Below are positions 14,322 through 62,501 of a stretch of 64,000 nucleotides of DNA, piece after piece (the first letter of the stretch is position 1; every line of letters begins with the position of its first letter). A program made the translations under genes and the position numbers. This stretch comes from Oscillospiraceae bacterium (lineage in GTDB: Bacteria > Bacillota > Clostridia > Oscillospirales > Acutalibacteraceae), in assembly GCA_015066225.1 (NCBI GenBank), contig SVOT01000001.1, positions 186,001 to 250,000 on the forward strand, given 5' to 3'. The notes beneath the pieces are model-generated. The model worked only from the letters and a program-made list of their open reading frames with translations. It was not told the origin of the DNA and made no database searches.

Positions 14322-15380
14322 ATGAAAATTAGAGGTATTAACTTGAAAAAACAAGATTTCTGGGAAATATTCCCCCCTTTTGTTGCTGAGTTTTTAAATT
14401 ACAACAGCGTTATAAAAAACAGGTCTGACCTGACCGTAATTGAATACGGTAATGATTTGCAGACTTTTTTCAGGTTTTTAAAAGTTATCCGTGGATTAGT
14501 TGACAGAGAAACTCCTTTTGAAGAAATCGCAGTAAATGACATTTCTATTGAGATGATTTCAACAGTTTCTCTCAACGATGCTTATATGTTTCTTGTTTAC
14601 TGCAAAGACAATAGAGATAACAATGAACGTACAAGGGCCCGAAAAGCAACTACCCTGCGAATGTTTTACAAATACTTAACCGTTCAGAAGAAATTATTAG
14701 ATGAGAATCCCCTGCAGGAGCTCGATAGCCCTAAAATAAAAAAGACTCTCCCCAAATATCTAACCCTTGAGGAAAGCCTTCAGCTTTTAAACGCTGTTGA
14801 CGGCAAATATAAGGAACGCGATTATTGTATTCTTACAATGTTTTTAAACTGCGGATTACGTCTTTCTGAGCTTGTTTCTTTAGATTTAACAGATATCCGT
14901 TCAAACAACACTCTTGTAGTTACAGGTAAAGGTAATAAAGAGCGCACTATTTACTTGAATGACGCCTGTATAGATGCAATTAATGCCTATCTCCCCTTTC
15001 GCAAGGTTGACGGCGTAAAAGACAGCGACAGAAATGCGTTGTTTATCAGCCATCAAAAAACAAGAATCAGCCCAAAAACTGTTCAATACATAGTAAAATC
15101 CAACTTAGAAAAGGCAGGTTTGGCAGGTAGAGAGCTTTCGACCCATAAACTAAGACATACAGCAGCAACACTGATGTATCAATATGGTAACGTTGATGTT
15201 CTGGCAATCAAAGAGATCCTTGGTCACGAAAGCCTCAGCACAACGCAAATTTATACTCATATTATGGATGAACAGCTTCAAAAAGCGGCTCAGGCAAACC
15301 CGCTAAGTGGTGTTAAAGCACCCAAGAGAGCTGATTACGACCTTAATAAACTAAATGATGCCGAAGAAGCCGATAAATAG
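14322..15380 (+). CDS. Xer-like tyrosine recombinase
   Basis: A 352-residue site-specific recombinase. The C-terminal catalytic set is complete: R in CGLRLSELVSL, K in TGKGNKERTI, HKLRHTAATLM (HxxR), LGHESLSTTQIYTH (H and the nucleophile Y). The N-terminal SAM-like DNA-binding part is longer than in XerC/XerD (about 295-300), making the protein closer in length to XerS/XerH-type single recombinases. ATG 14322 has no ribosome site; TTG 14343, in frame with AGAGGT 6 bp before, is a serious alternative start. It overlaps the spoIIM-like gene tail-to-tail by 30 bp. xerD/ripX lies near spoIIM in Bacillus as well, which supports a chromosome-resolution role. Confidence 0.85.
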   Translation: MKIRGINLKKQDFWEIFPPFVAEFLNYNSVIKNRSDLTVIEYGNDLQTFFRFLKVIRGLVDRETPFEEIAVNDISIEMISTVSLNDAYMFLVYCKDNRDNNERTRARKATTLRMFYKYLTVQKKLLDENPLQELDSPKIKKTLPKYLTLEESLQLLNAVDGKYKERDYCILTMFLNCGLRLSELVSLDLTDIRSNNTLVVTGKGNKERTIYLNDACIDAINAYLPFRKVDGVKDSDRNALFISHQKTRISPKTVQYIVKSNLEKAGLAGRELSTHKLRHTAATLMYQYGNVDVLAIKEILGHESLSTTQIYTHIMDEQLQKAAQANPLSGVKAPKRADYDLNKLNDAEEADK

Positions 15381-58914: not shown

Positions 58915-60543
58915 ATGATTACAAAAACAGAATGGAAAAACATCAGGGGCTCTTCCCCTGTCCCCGACCAGATAATGCTATCAGTAAAGGGTAACCCTTC
59001 GAGTAATATGGCTGTGCGTTGGCGAACAGATACACAGGCAGACAGCGGCTTTGTTAAAATCCGTGAAAAGGATTCAACTGAATGGCGAATCATTTCGGCA
59101 CAGAGCATTGATTTTGAAACCGATATGGATTTCAGCCGTTTTCACTTTGCAGACCTCAGCGGGCTTTCTGAAGACACTTTTTACGAATATAACTGCGGTG
59201 ATGAAAAAAACCGAAGCGAAAACTATGTTTTCAAAACCACAAAAAAAGACTGCACTAAATTTTCTTTTCTTTGCATTTCAGACGTTCAAGCCGGTGACGC
59301 CGAGCCCCCTGCAGACTATTCGGCGTTAAACACCGTTCTCAAAGAAACATTAAAAAAGCACCCTCAGTGCGAATTCATTTTGACTGCGGGTGACAACACA
59401 AACTGCGGTCAGACAGATATTCAATGGACAGGACTTTTTGAGGGCTTAAAAGGAATAATTGAGTCAAAACCCATTATGTTCTGCATGGGTAACCACGACG
59501 ATATGGGCTTTGAAAACTACTTCACAAAGGAAGGTAAATATTACTCTGAATATGCTGAGTATTTTACTAATCAGCTTTGGGGCTCATACGAGCACAACGG
59601 CCCCAAGGACAGACCTGTGGCAAACTACGCTTTTGACTACGGCAACGTGCATTTCTGCGTAACAGGCACAAGCGGATATGAAGAAATGAATGAGTGGCTT
59701 GTTGACCAGATGAAAAACAGCGACAAAACCTGGAAATTTGCCGTTCACCACTTCCCTGTTAACTATTCCTCACCGGTTCTTGAAATTGAAGACACATACC
59801 CCGCTCTTCGTGAGGGAATGGATATGTGTGATATTGTTTTTTCGGGTCACGAGCACACCTTTGCACGCTCTTACCCAAGACGGGGTGAAGGTTTATTCGA
59901 CAAGCCCTCCGAGGGTACAATTCACTACAACCTCGGCTCAAGCCACAGAAACTCACCGGGGGCACGGGTTGTCAACAAGGTTTGGAACGTTAAGACATAT
60001 TGCCACGAAGAGCCCCTTTCAATGTATTCGGTTGTTGACATAGACGATAAAAAATGTACTCTTACAGCCTACGTTGAAGACGGCAGAGTTGTTGACGTTT
60101 GCGTGATTGATAAAAACAAAGATAACATCTCCCCTGCAGACCTTGCCCCGATTTACGACAAAACAAGGCTTCTTTTCAAGGGTTACGACCTTGGCATCTG
60201 CACACTTGCTACACTACCACAAAAGGTCAACGGTGTGTGGTATATACCAATCGGGCAAATAATCTCGTTCACAGGTGCCAACGTTGAAAGAGCACCGGGT
60301 AAAATTAAGGTTTCGATCTACGGCAGAACAAGCGAGTTTACCGAAAATTCAAACATTATAAAAACACAAAGTGGCGAAGAAGCAATGAGCTCCCCTTGTC
60401 TCAGGCTTGAACAAAATCAGCTTTACGTGCCCCTCGACGATTTCGGAAAAAACCTCAGAATGCACGGATATTATTATGAGCACAACAACTTCATCTCTAT
60501 TGAATCGGAAGTGCAACACCTTTCAATACCGCATCAGCCATAA
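58915..60543 (+). CDS. Purple-acid-phosphatase-like metallophosphoesterase
   Basis: A 542-residue protein: N-terminal Fn3-like domain (about 20-110; GNPSSNMAVRWRTDTQ), a calcineurin-type phosphoesterase with metal motifs CISDVQAGD, LTAGDNTNCG, MGNHDDMG, VHHFPVNY and FSGHEHTF, and a C-terminal module (about 425-530; WYIPIGQIISFTG ... LYVPLDDF) resembling the copper-amine-oxidase N-terminal stalk domain. The family is usually exported, yet there is no signal peptide here. Metal site complete. RBS GGAG. Ends with a strong terminator. Substrate unknown. Confidence 0.85.
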   Translation: MITKTEWKNIRGSSPVPDQIMLSVKGNPSSNMAVRWRTDTQADSGFVKIREKDSTEWRIISAQSIDFETDMDFSRFHFADLSGLSEDTFYEYNCGDEKNRSENYVFKTTKKDCTKFSFLCISDVQAGDAEPPADYSALNTVLKETLKKHPQCEFILTAGDNTNCGQTDIQWTGLFEGLKGIIESKPIMFCMGNHDDMGFENYFTKEGKYYSEYAEYFTNQLWGSYEHNGPKDRPVANYAFDYGNVHFCVTGTSGYEEMNEWLVDQMKNSDKTWKFAVHHFPVNYSSPVLEIEDTYPALREGMDMCDIVFSGHEHTFARSYPRRGEGLFDKPSEGTIHYNLGSSHRNSPGARVVNKVWNVKTYCHEEPLSMYSVVDIDDKKCTLTAYVEDGRVVDVCVIDKNKDNISPADLAPIYDKTRLLFKGYDLGICTLATLPQKVNGVWYIPIGQIISFTGANVERAPGKIKVSIYGRTSEFTENSNIIKTQSGEEAMSSPCLRLEQNQLYVPLDDFGKNLRMHGYYYEHNNFISIESEVQHLSIPHQP

Positions 60544-60549
60544 CAAACA

Positions 60550-60582
60550 AAAGCCACCCGGCGAGGGTGGCTTTGATTTTTT
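60550..60582 (+). terminator. Intrinsic terminator
   Basis: AAAGCCACCC / GGGTGGCTTT with GGCGA loop, followed by GATTTTTT. Confidence 0.85.
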
Positions 60583-60684
60583 AATTTAAAATTACGATAA
60601 TAACCACTATTACTTAATGAACAAACCTTTAATCTTATCAATTATTTTTCCCGAATCAGAGACAGGCTTATCTACAATCCAAGG

Positions 60685-60730
60685 CAAACATCCGTGTGTA
60701 GGCTTCGCCGAGGGTGCGTTCGAATCCCTG
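60685..60730. repeat. Degenerate half copy of the tRNA-linked repeat
   Basis: Shares GGCTTCGCCGAGGGTG and GTTCGAATCCC with the right half of units at 61815 and 61962, and begins AAACATCCG against AAACACCCG. The left half is missing. Confidence 0.65.
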
Positions 60731-60773
60731 TTTTTAAATTTCACAAGAAACCACAACATAACATATCCGGGAA

Positions 60774-61310
60774 TCAAATATTATTATGAAAATAATATAA
60801 AACTTCAGTTTCACTGTCGTATAAATAAATTGAATAAAAATCAAACTTCCTATAATTTAAATCTTCGTCAGGATCGTTGTGTTTGGTTTTGATATAAACA
60901 AAATCACCCTCGGTTATAGTTTTTCTATTAAAATCGTAGTTTTCTTTTAATTCATTTCCTATTTCATCAACCCAATTTTCAAAATTATCCATATACGAAT
61001 ACAATTCTGCAATATCATCCGAGGTAACAACAGAAAAATATTCGGATAACTCAAAGTCTTCAACCGAGATTTCATCAAAAGTATACTTTGCATAATCAGT
61101 ATAATCCTGAAATCCACCTGAAGTATAAAACTCTTTATTATTATACGGAGGTAAAGAATCAATTACAGGGTCGGAATAAGCATTATCAAACGGTGAAATA
61201 GATTTAAGAAATGCCCAAAAATCCTTATCCTCTGATTCAGAGGATAGTGAACAAGACGAAAAAGAGATAATGATTAATAAAACTAAAATAAATGATGTGA
61301 TTCGTTTCAT
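60774..61310 (-). CDS. Putative lipoprotein of unknown function
   Basis: A 178-residue protein starting MKRITSFILVLLIIISFSSC: a signal peptide ending in a lipobox-like FSSC, so it should be lipid-anchored outside the membrane. The mature part is rich in Tyr, Asp and Glu (YTDYAKYTFDEISVEDFELS) and shows no family I recognise. RBS AGGTG 11 bp before the start. It stands alone in a repeat-rich stretch, so it may be part of accessory DNA. Confidence 0.65.
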   Translation of the reverse strand: MKRITSFILVLLIIISFSSCSLSSESEDKDFWAFLKSISPFDNAYSDPVIDSLPPYNNKEFYTSGGFQDYTDYAKYTFDEISVEDFELSEYFSVVTSDDIAELYSYMDNFENWVDEIGNELKENYDFNRKTITEGDFVYIKTKHNDPDEDLNYRKFDFYSIYLYDSETEVLYYFHNNI

Positions 61311-61472
61311 AATTTAAACACCTCGTTTTCTTAAAAAAAGTTGTAAGTTTGTTTGAACACCATTTAAAAGAAAACTCTAAATCCGCCAGTAAAGAATTAT
61401 TCATATATTCCCCCTCGACTAGACTTTAACACAAACCCCCATTTTTTTCAACTGCCAGCGTTACAGGCGACT

Positions 61473-61526
61473 AATTAATTCACATAAAAAACAGCAACCA
61501 CCATTTATTGGTGATTGCTTTATTTG
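61473..61526 (-). repeat. Copy of the tRNA-Ser 3' terminator sequence, detached
   Basis: CACATAAAAAACAGCAACC and CACCATTTATTGGTGATTGC repeat the spacer/terminator that follows the tRNA at 62060-62108. Here no tRNA piece is attached to it. From 61311 to 61472 I see nothing else I can support. Confidence 0.65.
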
Positions 61527-61600
61527 TCTGTGGGCTACAAAAAAGATATATTCTGCTTTTTGTGTATGAATTCGAACTCTCACATAATCGTTAGCTTTTA

Positions 61601-61779
61601 GTGAAATCGTTCGCTTGCGCTCACGGTGAAATAATTCACTCCGTGAATTGTGAAATATTGCTCCCGTTGGTTGCAATGTGAAATAAAATTCGCCTCCTCA
61701 CATTTGCGGAGCAAATATTTCACAGCGAAGCTATTTCACTTGGCGAAGCCAAATTTCACTCGCCGCAGGCGAATTTCAT
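61601..61779. repeat. Nested palindrome: GTGAAAT/ATTTCAC array with mini-hairpins
   Basis: Four GTGAAAT copies (61601, 61626, 61650, 61678) then three ATTTCAC and one ATTTCAT (61717, 61733, 61753, 61773). Between them lie short hairpins, most with 3-nt loops: AATTCAC-TCC-GTGAATT, ATTTGC-GGA-GCAAAT, AGC-GAA-GCT, TTGGC-GAA-GCCAA, TCGCC-GCA-GGCGA. The halves are reverse complements in their spacers, so the whole folds on a centre near 61,700. Confidence 0.8.
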
Positions 61780-61780
61780 T

Positions 61781-61814
61781 GAAAAAAGCACTTGCTTTCG
61801 CAAGTGCTTTTTTC
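61781..61814. terminator. Perfect 15-bp terminator hairpin
   Basis: GAAAAAAGCACTTGC / GCAAGTGCTTTTTTC with TTTC loop; joins the nested palindrome to the first tRNA-linked unit. On the minus strand it follows a tRNA-like CCA end at once. Confidence 0.8.
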
Positions 61815-61909
61815 TGGCGCAGACGGTGGGATTCGATGGGCTCTGCCCATCGTTTGCTCCGCAAACACCCGATTGTGTTCGGTTCGCCGAGGGTGGGTTC
61901 GAATCCCAT
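61815..61909. repeat. tRNA-linked palindromic unit, copy 1 (95 bp)
   Basis: Starts TGGCGCAGACGGTGGGATTC, identical to the reverse complement of the tRNA-Ser 3' end, then diverges. Outer arms TGGGATTCGA / TCGAATCCCA enclose hairpins GATGGGC-TCT-GCCCATC and GTTTGC-TCC-GCAAAC. The third hairpin lost one base relative to copy 2 (GGTTCGCC against GGCTTCGCC). Confidence 0.85.
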
Positions 61910-61961
61910 TATTCATTTACATAAAAAACAGCAACCAACATTAATTAGCGGTTACTGTTTT
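61910..61961 (-). repeat. Diverged tRNA-terminator copy between units
   Basis: Minus strand ACAGTAACC / GGTTGCTGT stem followed by Ts. Compared with 62060-62108 the arms differ but still pair (one G-T wobble), so the stem is kept while sequence drifts. Confidence 0.65.
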
Positions 61962-62057
61962 TGGCGCAGACGGTGGGATTCGATGGGCTCTGCCCATCGT
62001 TTGCTCCGCAAACACCCGATTGTGTTCGGCTTCGCCGAGGGTGGGTTCGAATCCCAT
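61962..62057. repeat. tRNA-linked palindromic unit, copy 2 (96 bp)
   Basis: Matches copy 1 except for one extra C. Adds an intact CGGC-TTC-GCCG hairpin, giving three side hairpins inside one closing stem, a cloverleaf-like outline. The right end GGTGGGTTCGAATCCCAT looks like a tRNA T-arm in the direction opposite to the tRNA-Ser gene. Confidence 0.85.
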
Positions 62058-62059
62058 TT

Positions 62060-62108
62060 TTGATTTACATAAAGAAAGCAACCACCATTTATTGGTGATT
62101 GCTTTATT
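62060..62108 (-). terminator. Terminator of tRNA-Ser
   Basis: Minus strand GCAATCACC / GGTGGTTGC stem (one G-T/T-G pairing) and a T-rich tail, directly after the encoded CCA. Confidence 0.75.
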
Positions 62109-62199
62109 TGGCGCAGACGGTGGGATTCGAACCCACGAGCCCGGTTAAAGGCTAACGCATTTCGAGTGCGCCCCGTTATGACCACTTCGATACGTCTGC
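62109..62199 (-). tRNA. tRNA-Ser (anticodon CGA), CCA encoded
   Basis: Acceptor GCAGACG pairs with CGTCTGC, discriminator G, CCA encoded. Anticodon stem CGCA/TGCG closes the loop CTCGAAA, giving anticodon CGA (reads UCG). Long variable arm of the class II type, T-arm GTGGG-TTCGAAT-CCCAC. No intron. Confidence 0.95.
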
Positions 62200-62249
62200 A
62201 TTTATTGTTATATTCAAAACGATTGTTGCGGGGAAATAAACACTTCGGG

Positions 62250-62397
62250 GCTTGCCCCGTTATGTCCTGTTGCGGTGCCCGAAAAATCTGCATATCTGTC
62301 GATATTTGATTTTTCGACCGCTGCCACTCCTTATTGCTCGCTTACTCTGCCACCGGCAGCGCTCGCAAACGTCCCCACTTCGATACATCTTCATATG
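62250..62397 (-). pseudogene. Broken tRNA-Ser 5'-half copy interrupted by about 105 bp
   Basis: GCCCCGTTATG (near 62255) and CCACTTCGATACATCTTCAT (near 62376) match two parts of the tRNA-Ser D-arm/acceptor region that lie next to each other in the intact gene. Between them lies palindrome-bearing DNA (CGAAAAATC / GATTTTTCG). The anticodon and 3' half are absent. The rest of 62200-62580 holds only the promoter below. Confidence 0.5.
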
Positions 62398-62501
62398 TTT
62401 ATATATTTTTCATTTTGTCAACGCTTGATATTTTAGCAAAAGGTCACTATTATGTCAAGGAATTTTTGGTTATTTAGTTCGACTAATTTCCCCTAATTTT
62501 A

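Follow-up and report, generated by a model that had tools for sequence, protein, structure and literature searches.

The tandem repeats behind the tRNA-Ser(CGA) gene belong to a family of DNA elements found at 21 tRNA types across one ruminant-gut Oscillospiraceae genus. Read in the sense of the tRNA, the elements share a general plan: the 3' end of their own tRNA from C56 to CCA, a terminator, a spacer, an inverted copy of tRNA nucleotides 51-63, and a core of mini-hairpins. We propose, with a probability of about 0.45, that the repeats are tRNA-anchored DNA elements which duplicate when the T-arm and the inverted T-arm pair in single-stranded DNA.

In the window (the whole 64,000-nucleotide stretch analysed), ARAGORN found a single tRNA gene, the tRNA-Ser(CGA) that anchors the array (62109..62199, minus strand; Rfam tRNA 52.5 bits), and the array features that follow are assigned to the same strand. 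Immediately 3' of the tRNA CCA lies terminator 1 (62071..62108; inverted repeat I8 and sequence). Unit 1 then has an inverted T-arm, tRNA nucleotides 51-63 read backwards (62041..62056; inverted repeat I6, 100% complementary to the tRNA T-arm), a core (61983..62040) whose three triloop mini-hairpins were delimited by folding and covariation (plus-strand positions 62026-62038, 61999-62013 and 61981-61999), and a tRNA copy from C56 to CCA (61962..61982). Terminator 2 with its spacer (61909..61961; repeats D1 and I16) leads to unit 2, which consists of an inverted T-arm (61893..61908; repeat I5), a core in which hairpin 1 is one base shorter (61836..61892; GGCGAACCGA vs GGCGAAGCCGA), and a second C56-to-CCA copy (61815..61835). 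On the plus strand both tRNA copies are the exact reverse complement of the tRNA 3' end, TGGCGCAGACGGTGGGATTCG, and the opposite-facing T-arm that closes each unit reads GTGGGTTCGAATCCCA. In tRNA sense the order is thus terminator, TGGGATTCGAACCCA (the backwards T-arm), a core (about 58 bases, three perfect mini-hairpins), CGAATCCCACCGTCTGCGCCA (C56 to CCA), and again a terminator, which follows each 3'-end copy, before the series repeats. Tandem Repeats Finder gave a period of 147 with 2.2 copies and 91% matches. Between the CCA of unit 2 and terminator copy 3 (61485..61521; repeats D1 and I1) lies an element with Gut-1 palindromes (61522..61814; Rfam RF01706, boundaries read from the sequence), and a gene for a 178-aa lipoprotein-like protein stands inside the array (60774..61310; no Pfam match; sister genomes have homologues close to other tRNAs). 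The segment with the palindromes and the gene ends at a third inverted T-arm, degenerate and with a truncated core (60701..60729).

An earlier note on this DNA had described two tandem units with the reverse-complemented tRNA-Ser(CGA) 3' end, a terminator copy beside each, and a closed stem with up to three hairpins and an opposite-facing T-arm. All of these were found again at the positions above, as was a palindromic element bounded by inverted T-arm sequence. The window units are palindromic tRNA-derived repeats, and the term 'cloverleaf-like' fits their fold alone, not a tRNA: the tRNA finders recognised no complete cloverleaf in the units and only the tRNA-Ser in the window. Folded as DNA, the window unit reached z -4.8 and beat 200 of 200 shuffles; folded as RNA, it reached z -3.2 and beat all shuffles except two.

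The window unit matches many places in its own 2.03 Mb genome, in about 11 other regions, and repeat clusters lie directly 3' of 13 of the 43 tRNA genes, namely those for Ser (CGA, GGA, GCT), Leu (CAG, GAG, TAA), Tyr, Pro, Lys, Arg (CCG, ACG), Glu and fMet. The carrier is always the last tRNA of its operon, before the terminator, and tRNAs inside an operon are without repeats. The core motif matches 18 of 40 relatives, all of the same genus, and occurs in 71 named stretches, nearly all from ruminant-gut Oscillospiraceae/Clostridia MAGs. An inverted copy of the own T-arm stands 40-95 nt 3' of 65 of the 130 tRNAs examined, compared with 0.01 expected from shuffled windows, which rules out a chance origin. 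The sequence varies from copy to copy, and at least 17 genomes that were assembled independently contain arrays; an assembly artefact is thereby ruled out, and so is the earlier note's own caveat that the unit might be found only here. A phage element was likewise dismissed, the class A core motif having no match in viral contigs. These comparisons were made on stretches near tRNAs; within them, the examined tRNA loci of a sister species (G019) had no units, and those of three other genera of the family (G022-G024) lacked the architecture. A literature search returned no account of tRNA-linked repeats like these, which does not imply absence, most subscription papers being outside its coverage.

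The common anatomy was determined from 75 extracted units at the 21 tRNA types, with about 95 copies of tRNA 3' ends. Nearly all of these copies, with a handful of exceptions, begin at the T55|C56 junction, in each of three core classes that share one frame, so that the T-loop is a fixed boundary as the earlier note had supposed. Every 3'-end copy is that of the tRNA of its own array. The match between the inverted arm and its own tRNA spans nucleotides 51-63 and hardly goes beyond. Nucleotides 51-52 of the inverted copy are unpaired inside the unit and would pair with the T-arm of the tRNA; there the match to the own tRNA is 94-96%, compared with about 50% for other tRNAs. At fMet and Thr-CGT, where the T-stem is not self-complementary at these positions, the inverted copy mostly follows the tRNA and not self-complementarity. 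The core is adapted to the tRNA as well: its base opposite tRNA nucleotide 57 forms a Watson-Crick pair in 46 of 52 cases and a G-T pair in 5, being C where nucleotide 57 is G and T where it is A. The same core class occurs at 18 tRNA types.

The cores fold on one strand. Perfect triloop hairpins are closed by C-G in 190 of 202 cases, and on the tRNA-sense strand 124 have a GNA loop while none has the complementary type, so that the fold belongs to the tRNA-sense strand. C(GNA)G triloops are exceptionally stable in DNA. Among 31 distinct units, 95.9% of the pair cells in the stems are paired, two-sided changes number 99 compared with 36 in shuffles, and G-U cells are few. Sliding the pairing partner abolishes the covariation signal. 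The covariation of the base stem is partly a mere reflection of the tRNA copies, whereas that of hairpins 1-3 does not depend on them.

Comparison of cores among loci bears on their age. Core identity is 0.96 between tandem neighbours, 0.79 between units at the same tRNA in other genomes, 0.69 between different tRNAs of the same genome, and 72% between different tRNAs in other genomes; arrays differ in length, and concerted evolution of the cores within one genome was not seen. Since a core resembles those at its tRNA in other genomes more than those at other tRNAs of its genome, and tandem copies are 96% alike, the elements appear to be old residents with local turnover, which probably took up their places behind the tRNAs before the species diverged; by these identities, ancient residence with local duplication and loss fits the data better than recent spread. 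The earlier note had considered a non-autonomous element using the T-loop as its target, or a tRNA-derived repeat spread by recombination. The T-loop boundary and the many copies agree with such a picture. Current jumping into T-loops is not supported, given the identities of 0.79 and 0.69, the derivation of every 3'-end copy from its own tRNA, and the enzyme searches of this genome: these found no serine recombinase, no reverse transcriptase, no dedicated integrase (integron IntI included) and no Y1 transposase, the last being absent also from G008, which like this genome is rich in arrays. As the genome is 95% complete, an enzyme gene could have been missed. Its sole tyrosine recombinase, the one PF00589 protein, is chromosomal Xer-like (window 14322-15380) and has orthologues in most sister genomes searched. 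Ordinary integrases are located at tRNAs in sister genomes.

Some arrays hold more than tandem copies. The Pro-GGG array has cores of mixed class in the order A, B, A, A, and the Tyr array reads A, Gut-1, B, Gut-1, with two Gut-1-like insertions. The fMet array contains a 2.36 kb gene-bearing segment closed by a full site, and orthologous Thr-CGT loci hold different genes between their copies, with a tRNA boundary (k=12-13) longer than that of the hairpin units. A 9.6 kb island with a two-component system, ABC exporter and permease genes, and small unknown genes splits the Leu-TAA array between two units (L308 530-10160; G000:C15:18430-28060). The lipoprotein family is found close to Ser-CGA, Arg-ACG and Leu-CAA in three genomes, with two of its five homologues away from any tRNA. 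Truncated sites are mostly at the far end of an array. From the mixed arrays, the gene segments, the island and the lipoprotein genes near three tRNAs, it follows that insertions occur too. From exactly CCA onward, L170 and L038 have the same downstream flank, after Leu-TAA in one genome and after Pro-GGG in the other, which suggests exchange between arrays of different tRNAs.

The earlier note had also pointed to flanking tRNA pieces and empty sites. The pieces could all be assigned to their own tRNAs; a clean empty site for the window locus was not found among 22 genomes, four of which have the tRNA-Ser(CGA), in the two readable ones elsewhere and without units. At Glu-TTC, the far terminator of a filled locus (L128) resembles that of an empty one (L119). 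When filled and empty sites were compared at Glu-TTC and Leu-CAA, both terminators were alike in most loci, so that insertion and deletion are not distinguishable there. We also considered the terminator as part of a mobile unit and rejected this, the excess similarity of terminators across tRNAs being weak and confounded by lineage.

The GTGAAAT palindromes of the window match the Rfam family Gut-1 (RF01706) at 61712-61781 (minus strand, 69.8 bits) and 61599-61689 (plus strand, 50.9 bits). Gut-1 has hitherto been an orphan RNA known solely from environmental sequences (PMC2864571). Here its palindromes are inserted exactly 3' of tRNA CCA ends and also flank genes for 23S rRNA intervening-sequence proteins (PF05635); the cases are in the window (61522-61814), at L032, L037, L226, L227, L230 and L186, and at G000:C17:104905-105511. 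Of 30 such protein genes, 9 have a Gut-1 match within 600 bp, compared with about 1% expected for each. Rather than an RNA gene, Gut-1 may be a palindrome that terminates a small mobile element. A third palindromic family (GTGTTTGTGTCCGCAAGGACACAAC...) lies directly 3' of the tRNA terminator at Ala-GGC (L229), Thr-GGT (L222) and Cys-GCA (L220). Asn-GTT (L218) and Pro-TGG (L224) carry unit-like repeats with other cores, whose boundary lies further upstream in the tRNA, in the variable loop or anticodon stem; at Pro-TGG the inverted copy is shifted to match.

The duplication we propose starts from the observed anatomy, covariation and distribution of the repeats. The tRNA strand would become single-stranded, perhaps as the lagging strand, and the inverted copy would pair with the T-arm of the upstream tRNA. 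A growing DNA end could then stall past the hairpin core and re-prime at T55|C56, halfway along the T-arm that has been freed, so that the tRNA 3' end, the terminator, the inverted arm and the core would be copied anew as an exact tandem duplication. Such an event would need no dedicated recombinase and would leave the tRNA intact, although the strand, the enzyme and the direction of growth are themselves inferred. Units would be lost by homologous exchange between repeats, and hairpin-templated correction, selection or both would keep the arms paired and matched to the tRNA. We prefer hairpin-directed duplication because it accounts for the exact junction in the T-loop and the match over nucleotides 51-63, and equally for 3' ends that are always those of the own tRNA, for the likeness of neighbouring copies and for the absence of a dedicated enzyme. 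The fold kept by paired changes on the tRNA-sense strand, its GNA triloops, the core base that covaries with nucleotide 57, the near-identical copies within arrays, and the tyrT repeats of E. coli also support it; the tyrT repeats have the same plan, and an E. coli genome with any match has between 1 and 9 of them (median 2). Local duplication alone cannot yield arrays of mixed cores or one core class at 18 tRNA types, and the gene-bearing segments between copies require insertion besides duplication. The low G-U frequency is compatible also with templated correction without function. The first arrival of the cores at about 20 tRNA types, probably early in the genus, is left unaccounted for by duplication.

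That first spread and the mixed arrays are better explained by an integron-like process, which we consider possible but doubtful overall. Here the folded inverted T-arm, hairpins and T-arm would be an attC-like single-strand site and the tRNA T-arm the attachment site, and cassettes, empty or gene-bearing, would enter at T55|C56 through a recombinase acting in trans, perhaps the housekeeping Xer. The attC-like architecture with its strand-specific fold, the single junction across three core classes, the gene segments between 3'-end copies (the 2.36 kb fMet segment closed by a full site among them), the different genes at orthologous Thr-CGT loci, the placement of lipoprotein genes of one family near three tRNAs, in as many genomes, and the truncated sites mainly at the far end all agree with it. 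However, this genome has no integrase besides the chromosomal Xer, no cassette carries the 3' end of another tRNA, cores do not move among the tRNAs of one genome, two of the five lipoprotein homologues lie away from tRNAs, and the k=12-13 boundary of the Thr-CGT gene segments is longer than that of hairpin units. We judge it unlikely that recombination of folded, single-stranded T-arm/inverted-T-arm sites by a host enzyme such as Xer turns tRNA genes into attachment sites of integron-like gene-cassette arrays without an integron integrase, in which case the tyrT repeats of E. coli would be left over from the same process in a distant phylum.

Selection on RNA could likewise yield covariation: read-through of the terminator would give a trailer RNA, like the RtT RNA of E. 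coli, that acts by itself or protects or tunes tRNA 3' processing. The stems do covary in the tRNA sense, the repeats are confined to terminal tRNAs, a terminator is kept in each copy, and RtT of E. coli is annotated as an sRNA. We find such a function quite unlikely, however, because G-U intermediates are almost absent, the triloops are of the type exceptionally stable in DNA, the units sit 3' of the terminator, and they are missing from the examined tRNA loci of G019. Direct repeats of a tRNA 3' end are the usual scar of tRNA-targeting integrases, and by this token the units could be accretion relics, small CIME-like remnants bounded by attL and attR of integrative elements that used tRNA 3' ends, the inverted arm being what remains of an integrase arm site. 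Segments of 1-2.4 kb and the 9.6 kb island do split some arrays, and ordinary integrases do lie at tRNAs in sister genomes. But such relics predict neither an inverted copy matching each tRNA at 51-63, nor a core adapted to nucleotide 57, nor one core at 18 tRNA types, and we regard this origin as very unlikely.

The genus repeats can be set against several known systems. Integron arrays, with their attI and attC sites, also consist of tandem cassettes from one anchored end with some gene-bearing segments, and attC folds as a single strand into a site whose variable hairpins are enclosed by one inverted and one direct box, an arrangement that the genus repeats share. Unlike integrons, the repeats have no integron integrase, most units are gene-free, and there is little exchange between arrays; the R boxes RYYYAAC/GTTRRRY are absent, their place being taken by the tRNA's own GGGATTCGA/TCGAATCCC. 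CIME/ICE accretion and tRNA-targeting islands share the tRNA 3'-end direct repeats and tandem insertions at tRNA genes, whereas the genus units are about 150 bp, free of integrase, and equipped with an inverted T-arm and a conserved hairpin core. REP/BIME palindromes and MITEs are likewise short, non-coding, palindromic and present in many copies per genome, but the genus repeats are fixed relative to tRNA T-loops and have tRNA-matched flanks, in a genome without a RAYT-type Y1 transposase.

The closest parallel is the set of distal repeats at E. coli tyrT/tyrV (rttR/RtT RNA, RF00391), to our knowledge a single odd case whose origin has hitherto been unexplained. These too stand in tandem behind a tRNA and end in its 3' end, from T-loop to CCA. 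At tyrT (K-12 1286200-1287700), GGGGAAGGAT is followed by hairpins and then by ATCCTTCCCCCACCACCA, with a period of 178; as in the genus repeats, an inverted tRNA segment and the 3' end enclose hairpins (GGGGAAGGAT ... ATCCTTCCCC, 111 nt), and GNA-triloop hairpins, with GCA triloops, are on the tRNA-sense strand. The tyrT repeats differ in their confinement to a single tRNA locus, the period of 178, an inverted part of about tRNA nucleotides 59-68 rather than 51-63, an unrelated core sequence, the encoded tpr, and no terminator noted per unit; RF00391 was not among the Rfam matches at E<=1 in 60500-62400. On this comparison, the resemblance is best described as a likeness of plan and not demonstrated homology. 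Regardless, the tyrT plan now extends to about 20 tRNA types in one genus, where the inverted arm is matched to the tRNA, the junction is fixed and the covarying hairpins are of DNA type. Such repeats can accordingly be treated as a general class whose mechanism is open to test, be it hairpin-directed duplication or recombination of folded sites at the T-loop. They also suggest how new DNA may build up behind tRNA genes while the tRNA is unharmed.
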